Origin: Phycisphaerae bacterium RAS2
Lineage (GTDB): Bacteria; Planctomycetota; Phycisphaerae; UBA1845; UTPLA1
Direction of reading: 5' to 3'
NCBI GenBank assembly: GCA_007753915.1
Contig: CP036352.1
Span: forward strand, 2,046,001-2,110,000
Length of the DNA: 64,000 nucleotides
Positions 24,128 to 26,563 of this stretch are shown in pieces (within the stretch, counting starts at the first letter, position 1; each line of letters starts with the position of its first letter). The notes under the pieces are model-generated. The model had not been told where the DNA came from and did no database searches. It worked only from the letters and a program-made list of their open reading frames with translations. Position numbers and translations under genes: made by a program.

Positions 24128-24694
24128 TTGGAACTTGGCCTCACGAAACAACGCAGCACCGATCTGAACTTCTATCTGTATCGCCGGGCGCTCCATCCCG
24201 AGCTTTTCCACATTTACCTGGACAAGCACATCAAATACGGGAACTTCCAGGCGGACATCTGGATCGTTGGTTTGAGCCACCTCGTGACGTTGCAGAGCAA
24301 CGGCACCATGGTGACGGAGCTGACCTCCCCGCCCAACGATCTCCTGACCGAGCGCAACCTTGTCACGCAGTTCCGCTTCCGCGGCGAGCGCGATTTCCAG
24401 TACCGCTTCAACGACAACATGCGGTACATTTTCAGCAGCCAGGTCGAGGAGATGACCGAGCACATCTTCCGCACGACCTACCGCGACCTGGTCCGCTACG
24501 CGAAGCAGAAGGGTCTGTACGTCCCGTACGAACAGTGGGCGAGCAACGGCCTCGAGCCGTTCAGCTTCATCGATTACGAGACGCGCGCGACCGAACTGCA
24601 CATTCACGCGTATCATGCCTTCCCCGGTGAGTGGCGCATTCTTCGCACGCAGTCGATCTTCGAGACCGGCCCGAGCGCGAAGAAGGGCGGCTGA
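24128..24694 (+). CDS. DUF2617-like protein
   Basis: 188 residues from a TTG start preceded by AGGGAG six bases upstream. The protein is soluble and has no signal peptide. Its opening STDLNFYLYRRALHPELFHI and the following strands (DIWIVGLSHLVTL) match what I recall of DUF2617 proteins of planctomycetes and actinobacteria. The mid-region has NDNMRYIFSSQVEEMTEHIF. No catalytic motif is evident. It has its own strong promoter and no operon partner; a probable 6S RNA gene follows on the same strand. Confidence 0.55.
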   Translation: MELGLTKQRSTDLNFYLYRRALHPELFHIYLDKHIKYGNFQADIWIVGLSHLVTLQSNGTMVTELTSPPNDLLTERNLVTQFRFRGERDFQYRFNDNMRYIFSSQVEEMTEHIFRTTYRDLVRYAKQKGLYVPYEQWASNGLEPFSFIDYETRATELHIHAYHAFPGEWRILRTQSIFETGPSAKKGG

Positions 24695-24806: not shown

Positions 24807-24835
24807 TTGCATTACGACGGCGACTGTGCTAAGAG
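24807..24835 (+). promoter_or_regulatory. Promoter of the probable 6S RNA
   Basis: TTGCAT (24807-24812), a 17-base spacer ending in TGC, and TAAGAG (24830-24835) form a -35/extended -10 pair. The predicted start, about 24842, falls at the first base of the RNA's outer stem. Confidence 0.5.
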
Positions 24836-24842
24836 TATTACA

Positions 24843-25060
24843 GCATGGTTTGTGTTTCTGTCATGTTCGAATACGGAGGCACCGTTTCCTTGAACCGATA
24901 TGCTTGAACATTGGGGGTCGCGCGATCGTGGCCTGCACCGGGCGAACTTCGCTGGATCGTATTCGACGAAGCGGCCTGGGCGGCCCGCAAGACTCCCCCC
25001 TTTTGCAAGGGGTTCAAGAGACAACGCCTTCGAACGGCATTACGACGGAGCACGCCTGCT
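24843..25060 (+). ncRNA. ssrS: Probable 6S RNA
   Basis: About 218 bases that fold as 6S RNA does. In the closing stem, GTGTTTC/GGAGCAC (24852-24858 with 25047-25053), GTC/GAC (24860-24862 with 25044-25046), GTTCGAA/TTCGAAC (24865-24871 with 25029-25035) and GGC/GCC (24878-24880 with 25026-25028) pair. The central bubble contains CCGATAT (24895-24901), as near the product-RNA start of the enterobacterial 6S, and opposite it a small hairpin followed by GGGGTTCAAG (25009-25018), another 6S hallmark. The apical arm is closed by GGGGG/CCCCC (24913-24917 with 24995-24999). 6S RNA mimics an open promoter and sequesters sigma70-RNA polymerase. A promoter precedes it and a terminator follows. No covariance search was possible. 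Confidence 0.72.
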
Positions 25061-25070
25061 TTTGATCTCA

Positions 25071-25105
25071 CCCGTGCGGTGCCATTGGCGCGGCACGGGT
25101 TTTTT
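25071..25105 (+). terminator. Rho-independent terminator
   Basis: Stem CCCGTGC (25071-25077) and GCACGGG (25093-25099) with a 15-base GC-rich loop, followed by six T (25100-25105). The orientation serves the plus strand, so it ends the 6S RNA transcript and any read-through from the DUF2617-like gene. The last T is also the last base of the convergent pgpA stop codon. Confidence 0.8.
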
Positions 25106-25662
25106 CATGCCAGGCCCAGCCAGCCCGGCGCCCACCGCGCTCCCGCGTGCAGAATCGCCAGCGTGTACAGCCCCGCCACCACGTCATCCAGCACCACGCC
25201 CCAGCCGCCGGGGACGTGCCGCTCGATCCAGTTCGCCGGCCAGACCTTCGCAATGTCGATTGCTCGTTCGAGAAAAAACGCCGCCACGATGAGCTGCCAC
25301 GTCACCGGCAACCCCACCAGCCCGATCAGGTAACCGGGCAATTCATCAATCACGTTTCGCTTGCTGTCCTGTTCGTTCAGGATGCGGTCCGTCGCGCCGG
25401 CGACCCAGATGGAAACGAGCGTGAACACCCCCACGAAACCCACATACGGCGCCCACGCCAGTTTCAGTACGCCAACCAGCAGCAGGTAGAGCGGAATCCC
25501 CACCACGGCGACGGCAACGGTGCCCGATGCGATCGGTACGAATCCAACGTATGCCAGGGATCCGACAAAGAGCAGCACGCGCTGCGCGGTCGTTCGCGGA
25601 GGGGAATGACCTGGCGCGTGTGTCGCGTCACGGCTGGACGGTGAAGGGAGTGATTCGCCCAT
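25105..25662 (-). CDS. pgpA: Phosphatidylglycerophosphatase A
   Basis: 185 residues from the ATG at 25662, four bases past the mtnP stop; a longer frame lies inside mtnP. Four membrane helices carry the PgpA blocks: GFVPIASGTVAVA at the N-terminus, KRNVIDELPGYLIGL (acidic, metal-binding), and RAIDIAKVWPANWIERHVPGGWGVVLDDVVAGLY at the C-terminus, whose DD pair is conserved. PgpA removes phosphate from phosphatidylglycerophosphate in the last step of phosphatidylglycerol synthesis. The conserved residues are mostly present, with small variations such as IDELPG for IDEVVG. It is translated with the upstream mtnP gene. Confidence 0.85.
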   Translation of the reverse strand: MGESLPSPSSRDATHAPGHSPPRTTAQRVLLFVGSLAYVGFVPIASGTVAVAVVGIPLYLLLVGVLKLAWAPYVGFVGVFTLVSIWVAGATDRILNEQDSKRNVIDELPGYLIGLVGLPVTWQLIVAAFFLERAIDIAKVWPANWIERHVPGGWGVVLDDVVAGLYTLAILHAGARWAPGWLGLA

Positions 25663-25666
25663 TGGG

Positions 25667-26563
25667 TTACTTGATGTACTTGCTGATGAGAATTCCCAAA
25701 CGATCGCGCGTGGCTTTGGTGACGCTCTCGCGGTGGGTCCAGATGGATGACTCCAGCGCGTTGTGGCATTCGCACGGCGGCACGTTGCGATGCGCCATCC
25801 CACCCAGCGCGGATCGGATCAGCGCGATGCATCGTGCCGTGGCCTCTTCAACGTTGTGTAATATCTCCTGGATCAACGCCGTCTTGCTGACATTCGGATC
25901 GTGCGGCCGCCAACAGTCGTAGTCGGTTGGCAACGCGATCAGGGCGTAGCACATCTCCGCCTCCCGCGCGAGCTTCGCTTCCGGCATGCACGTCATGCCG
26001 ATGAGGTCGCCGCCCCACGACCGGTGCATCCGGCTTTCGGCTACGGTCGAGAAGGCCGGCCCCTCCATGCAAACGTAGGTGCCGCCGTCGTGCACCGTGA
26101 CATCTGCGTCGCTGGCTGATTCAAGAATGGCCTTCCGAAGCCGCGGGCAAAACGGTTCGGAAAAATCGACGTGCGCCACGAGGCCCGGTTCATCGAAATA
26201 CGTCGACGCCCGGCGGCTCGTGCGATCAATGGCCTGGTCGACGACGACCAGATCGCGCGGGCGAATCTCCTCGCGCAGGCTCCCTGTTGCCCCGCTTGCA
26301 ATGACGTGCGTCACACCTACTGACTTGAGCGCGTAGATGTTCGCACGATAGGGCACGGCCGTCGGGGAAAAAACATGACCCGGTCCATGTCGCGCGAGAA
26401 AGGCGATCTCGGCGCCCTCCCACTGCCCCCGAACAATCGGACCGCTGGGTTTGCCGAATGGCGTCTCGACCTGAATCGATTCCCCGCGCACCTCGGCTTC
26501 CAATGCCTTACCCAGTCCCGTGCCGCCGATCAGGCCGATAATTGGCTTGGTCATCCCGCTCAC
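25667..26563 (-). CDS. mtnP: S-methyl-5'-thioadenosine phosphorylase family protein
   Basis: 298 residues. The PNP/MTAP fold is evident from IIGLIGGTGLGK (phosphate loop), FLARHGPGHVFSP, YRANIYALKSVGVTHVIAS, TYVCMEGPAFSTVAES and GMTCMPEAKLAREAEMCYA. Near the end ALPTDYDCWRPHD holds the Asp residues that favour 6-aminopurines, supporting an MTA rather than an inosine substrate. The enzyme splits methylthioadenosine with phosphate into adenine and methylthioribose-1-phosphate for methionine salvage. No other salvage genes are nearby. The pgpA gene starts four bases downstream. Confidence 0.85.
   Translation of the reverse strand: MSGMTKPIIGLIGGTGLGKALEAEVRGESIQVETPFGKPSGPIVRGQWEGAEIAFLARHGPGHVFSPTAVPYRANIYALKSVGVTHVIASGATGSLREEIRPRDLVVVDQAIDRTSRRASTYFDEPGLVAHVDFSEPFCPRLRKAILESASDADVTVHDGGTYVCMEGPAFSTVAESRMHRSWGGDLIGMTCMPEAKLAREAEMCYALIALPTDYDCWRPHDPNVSKTALIQEILHNVEEATARCIALIRSALGGMAHRNVPPCECHNALESSIWTHRESVTKATRDRLGILISKYIK

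Follow-up and report, generated by a model that had tools for sequence, protein, structure and literature searches.

The 6S RNA gene of Phycisphaerae bacterium RAS2 and a conserved alternative pairing in its central bubble

6S RNA imitates an open promoter and occupies the housekeeping RNA polymerase holoenzyme; its release comes about when the polymerase uses it as a template for a product RNA (PMC8876501). In E. coli, this product is AUCGGCUCAGGGGACU (PMC12005410), and release is aided by a 9-pair hairpin in which the 3' bubble side pairs with the 3' strand of helix P2 (PMC8876501). A collapse helix, which joins the P2 3' strand to the distal part of the 5' bubble, aids the release of 6S-1 in B. 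subtilis and of the 6S RNA of A. aeolicus (PMC8876501). The actinobacterial Ms1 RNA is a structural relative of 6S RNA; its binding partner is core polymerase lacking the primary sigma factor (PMC9130861). As for Planctomycetota, 6S RNA has been reported absent in Thermogutta terrifontis (PMC5673643), and a passage of the same paper, citing Wehner 2014, gives it as absent also in Pirellula and Rhodopirellula. A search of mostly open-access literature returned no paper describing a planctomycete 6S RNA.

The locus described here is the single 6S RNA (ssrS) gene of Phycisphaerae bacterium RAS2, an identification that is close to certain. It occupies positions 24841-25105 on the forward strand of the window, i.e., the whole 64,000-nucleotide stretch of DNA that was analysed.

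Covariance-model match, transcription signals, and fold

According to the Rfam 6S model (RF00013), a full-length match lies at the expected place and strand (24852-25055, model positions 1-187 of 187) with a score of 42.1 bits and an E-value of 3.1e-7 in the local stretch. Genome-wide (E 6.3e-7), it is the sole 6S match in the 4.32-Mb genome. The score is 4.3 bits below the curated cut-off of 46.4 bits, which is a detection setting and not a biological feature. Because 42.1 bits falls just short of this value, cut-off-based annotation misses the gene: a default Rfam scan of the window with gathering thresholds reports only a tRNA and no 6S RNA, an outcome that would wrongly suggest the absence of 6S RNA. 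Weak matches to the mir-12 and sR23 covariance models were also seen and were rejected as chance. The first-pass annotation, made from the sequence alone, had proposed a probable 6S RNA gene, and this is borne out by the RF00013 match, single-copy orthologues, and abundant compensating changes. The genome also encodes the housekeeping sigma factor RpoD (C-terminal model 363.9 bits, above its cut-off). The locus thus shows every testable 6S RNA feature except a score above the Rfam threshold, and is an additional member of RF00013, ordinary in kind.

The proposed TTGCAT-17-TAAGAG promoter is read directly, together with a TG extension ahead of the −10 element (Table 1). Because a generic promoter scan did not list TTGCAT-17-TAAGAG, the promoter call uses conservation: the −35 TTG and the extended −10 are kept in relatives, with the −10 consensus being TGCTAAGAAT in the family and TGnTATAnT-like in the order. 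The Rho-independent terminator of the same proposal is likewise seen directly as a stem with a T-run, at a position kept in the family. Its stem is perfect over ACCCGTGC and has a single G-G mismatch deeper inside; family terminators are of the type ACCCGn..CGGGTTTTT. Equivalents of both signals stand at matching places in much of the order, and by sequence the RNA has the promoter and terminator of its own that are expected of an independent RNA gene.

Table 1. Features of the 6S RNA locus and its neighbours (window coordinates).
Feature	Position	Strand	Basis and remarks
DUF2617 protein, upstream neighbour	24128..24694	+	Pfam PF10936; retained next to the RNA in relatives
−35 element TTGCAT	24807..24812	+	Direct reading; TTG nearly invariant in 15 family members
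Extended −10, TG C TAAGAG(T)	24828..24836	+	TAAGAG at 24830-24835, 17-base gap from −35
6S RNA body	24841..25063	+	Order-level model R2, 140.1 bits; RF00013 match 24852-25055
P2 5' strand CTTGAACC	24889..24896	+	Fold, consensus helix 4 on alignment A5; also predicted product-RNA template
CCGAT, predicted product-RNA start opposite T24899	24895..24899	+	Analogy with E. coli product RNA (pRNA); computed
Second copy CTTGAAC, putative collapse-helix partner, 5' side of central bubble	24903..24909	+	Repeat analysis, constrained folding
Apical arm, closed by GGGGGTC / GACTCCCCC	24913..25000	+	Fold, covariation alignment
Potential 3'-bubble hairpin CCCCTT-TTGC-AAGGGG	24997..25012	+	Pair probability of 0.06 in the free RNA and 0.77 after template opening
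P2 3' strand GGTTCAAG	25011..25018	+	Pairs with 24889-24896; P2 borders the central bubble
Intrinsic terminator	25070..25105	+	Stem 25070-25083 / 25087-25100, T-run 25100-25105
Phosphatidylglycerophosphatase A (PgpA), downstream convergent neighbour	25105..25803	−	Pfam PF04608; retained next to the RNA in relatives

Regarding the neighbouring genes, DUF2617 and/or PgpA adjoins the 6S RNA in 11 of 15 family loci. The DUF2617 protein next to the 6S gene is about 75-90% identical across the family genera, which is unusually high. The PgpA ORF as listed begins with a GTG at 25803 and shares 25667-25803 with the 3' end of a purine nucleoside phosphorylase-type gene (25667-26563, −); the true PgpA start is probably further inside the ORF, because the Pfam domain starts at residue 80.

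The 223-nt strand 24840-25062 folds at −94.9 kcal/mol, compared with −76.6 ± 4.8 kcal/mol for shuffled sequences (z −3.84; 0 of 200 as low). The fold is rod-like, consisting of a closing stem, central bubble, and apical arm, and is kept by compensating changes. The apical arm closed by GGGGG/CCCCC that the first-pass annotation described is present as the apical closing helix of the minimum-energy fold. The bubble that it placed at CCGATAT is also there, but ACC and GGT are paired in P2 and the bubble starts at GAU.

Covariation was computed for 44 pairs on a 55-sequence alignment that is fitted to the model, which biases the counts towards structure, and that consists of related, hence not independent, sequences (the latter bears on the repeat statistics below as well). 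Compensating changes in orthologues, which the original proposal had called for, are abundant: in 32 of the 44 pairs both sides change while the pair is kept. Standard pairs make up 89.6% of pair cells (75.8% in column shuffles), and the covariation score is 0.365, as opposed to 0.155 for shuffled columns, a value attained in 0 of 500 shuffles. When one strand is shifted by a single base, pairing falls to about 50% or less. In a plain MAFFT alignment of 15 sequences, 16 pairs likewise change on both sides.

Orthologues and alternative readings

RF00013 reports one match each in 15 of 17 genomes of the host's family, 5 of them at or above the curated cut-off. Same-family orthologues reach 46.4-49.8 bits and other members of the order up to 67.7 bits, so the homology of the RAS2 RNA to accepted members is direct. 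Model R1, built from the 15 family loci, adds a copy overlooked by RF00013 (G002, 159 bits), giving 16 of 17 family genomes with one copy each; the sole exception, G010, has no 6S match and its genome is 75% complete. The broader model R2, built from 55 loci, recovers the RNA in 212 of 298 genomes of the class; for the host's order the figure is 61 of 65 genomes sampled, about six of which are borderline (E-values from 1e-4 to 1e-3). Each matched genome has a single copy except G533, which has two.

Across the phylum, 101 of 392 genomes have an RF00013 score above the cut-off; in the order, 24 of 101 do. In comparison with the 61 of 65 sampled genomes found by the clade model, the curated cut-off overlooks most 6S RNAs of the order. 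6S RNA is therefore general in this order of Planctomycetota, though the standard cut-off reports it in about a quarter of genomes, and reports of its absence in the phylum merit rechecking with clade models. The literature agrees with the first-pass statement that 6S RNA is poorly described in Planctomycetota; since 101 phylum genomes already pass RF00013, however, it is not unknown territory for annotation.

The sub-threshold RF00013 score could also be expected of an RNA that is of 6S type by descent but whose target was lost or changed, for example to core polymerase without sigma, for which Ms1 provides a precedent (PMC9130861). The conservation of CCGAT, P2, and the flanking motifs across the order differs from what a drifting relative would show, and RpoD is present in the genome, which makes such a change of target improbable. 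Even less credit can be given to the view that there is no independent RNA gene and that the structure belongs to a neighbouring gene, as its cis-acting leader or through read-through, which might be supposed from the position of the interval between two protein genes. Not only does the RNA have its own promoter and terminator, but 4 of 15 family loci retain it with neither DUF2617 nor PgpA found within 1.5 kb. It cannot be a PgpA leader because the downstream PgpA gene is convergent.

The ready folding of G+C-rich DNA and the mechanical ORFs overlapping the interval might suggest a fold arisen by chance or a gene for a small protein. The probability of this is negligible, given a fold z of −3.84, single-copy orthologues in hundreds of genomes, and strong covariation, which already refutes it. 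Protein-coding readings of the interval are ruled out because relatives carry frame-breaking indels in it, of lengths that are not multiples of three; the earlier claim that the region holds no protein gene stands. A 6S RNA acting on the housekeeping polymerase remains the preferred reading.

Second TTGAAC copy and a possible release step

Under the proposed mechanism, transcription would start from the gene's own promoter near 24841 and end at the terminator near 25105, probably followed by trimming of the transcript to about 200-220 nt. With its rod-like shape, the RNA would mimic an open promoter, with the housekeeping-sigma polymerase binding the central bubble and, under nutrient shortage, being kept off gene promoters. 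When nucleotides return, the polymerase would use the 5' strand of the bubble as template for a short RNA, whose predicted sequence is AUCGGUUCAAGG..., and this synthesis would open helix P2. The freed P2 3' strand, GTTCAAG, would then pair with a second copy, CTTGAAC, collapsing the bubble and releasing the RNA. By analogy with E. coli, the product is predicted as 5'-AUCGGUUCAAGGAAACGG, copied from AACCGAT at the bubble edge; with its start at T24899 it would begin AUCGGUUC, and the predicted start yields AUCGGUUCAAGG, which is similar to AUCGGCUCAGGG, the product RNA of E. coli. The CCGAT start region, P2, and the flanking motifs are conserved across the order.

The second TTGAAC, absent from the first-pass annotation, lies on the 5' side of the bubble and is complementary to the 3' strand of P2, so that in the collapsed state 25012-25018 would pair with 24903-24909. 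In the window, the complementarity between the 5' bubble and the P2 3' strand exceeds chance (p 0.006-0.016). The second copy forms 7 pairs in the host's genus, fewer than in most relatives (8-10 pairs); in most family relatives it reads TTGAACCC, the complement of which is GTTCAAG/GGGTTCAA in P2. In 43 of 51 sequences the duplex is stronger than those formed with shuffled bubbles (p<0.05). Because retrieval with our own models was suspected of favouring the second TTGAAC, loci chosen by RF00013, whose consensus is without it, were examined separately, and 21 of 24 order loci outside the host's family have it (p<0.05). Elsewhere in the phylum, 5 of 30 6S loci show the pairing at p<0.05. A second copy of the P2 5' strand (TTGAACCC, 24900-24912) is conserved in loci L002-L015, L062, and L067-L105 and tracks changes of the P2 3' strand.

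The position immediately outside the near-invariant GAAC core is paired in 34 of 48 cases, compared with 20.4 expected (0 of 2000 shuffles); the next two positions outward of the core show no covariation. By inspection, both copies in L087 read TAAAACC, facing GGGTTTTA; L104, L082, and L092 have GCGAACC against GGTTCGC; and in L101 the second copy TGAAACC faces GGTTTCA, a better fit than its P2 copy. Because the core hardly varies and uses the same 3' strand as P2, most support for the collapse helix comes from the near-perfect repeat and a few compensating cases.

In silico opening of at least 9 template bases of the window RNA lowers P2 from 0.93 to 0.00 and raises the collapse helix from 0.00 to 0.90-0.99, with 0.99 at 13-14 open bases. 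Constrained folding predicts the same switch for most relatives. The potential 3'-bubble hairpin retains a short C-G/U-A core in 88% of cells (helix 8). In one family genus (L062 from G002, L003, and L008), the free RNA is predicted to favour a 10-pair collapse helix over P2, which would mean that polymerase binding requires the help of protein, or may come from limits of the folding model.

The conserved alternative pairing seems somewhat more apt to help the release of 6S RNA from polymerase than not. Being strong in the order and seen in 5 of 30 loci elsewhere in the phylum, the switch is best viewed as a feature strong in the order. The odds are tilted slightly towards a hard-wired two-state 6S RNA in this order, in which the copying of about nine bases would cause the flip and ejection, and which most 6S RNAs sampled elsewhere lack. 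If this is true, the release mechanism would differ between lineages within one phylum.

Comparison with described 6S RNAs

The RAS2 RNA is like RF00013 members in its full-length structure, with closing stem, central bubble, and apical arm, in the CCGAT and GGGTTCAAG motifs, and in being present as one copy per genome. It differs from them in the score (42.1 versus 46.4 bits), a longer apical region, and its neighbours, which are DUF2617 and PgpA instead of ygfA.

In comparison with E. coli, the predicted product AUCGGUUCAAGG resembles AUCGGCUCAGGG and the motif around the bubble is common to both RNAs, whereas in RAS2 the additional sequence complementary to the P2 3' strand sits in the 5' bubble. 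An E. coli-type release hairpin was considered and not found: in place of the extended 9-pair hairpin, the window RNA has only the 6-pair CCCCTT/AAGGGG, mostly outside P2.

As for B. subtilis, folding predicts that the RAS2 P2 3' strand can likewise pair with the distal 5' bubble after P2 opens, and by inference the switch of the order corresponds to the B. subtilis-type release step. The comparative evidence for this collapse-helix route, which earlier work has addressed in B. subtilis and A. aeolicus, is moderate and new, and the 6S loci of the order offer natural variants on which it can be tested. The RAS2 repeat is nearly perfect (7 pairs, and 8-10 in most relatives), whereas the B. subtilis helix contains three weak A-U pairs.
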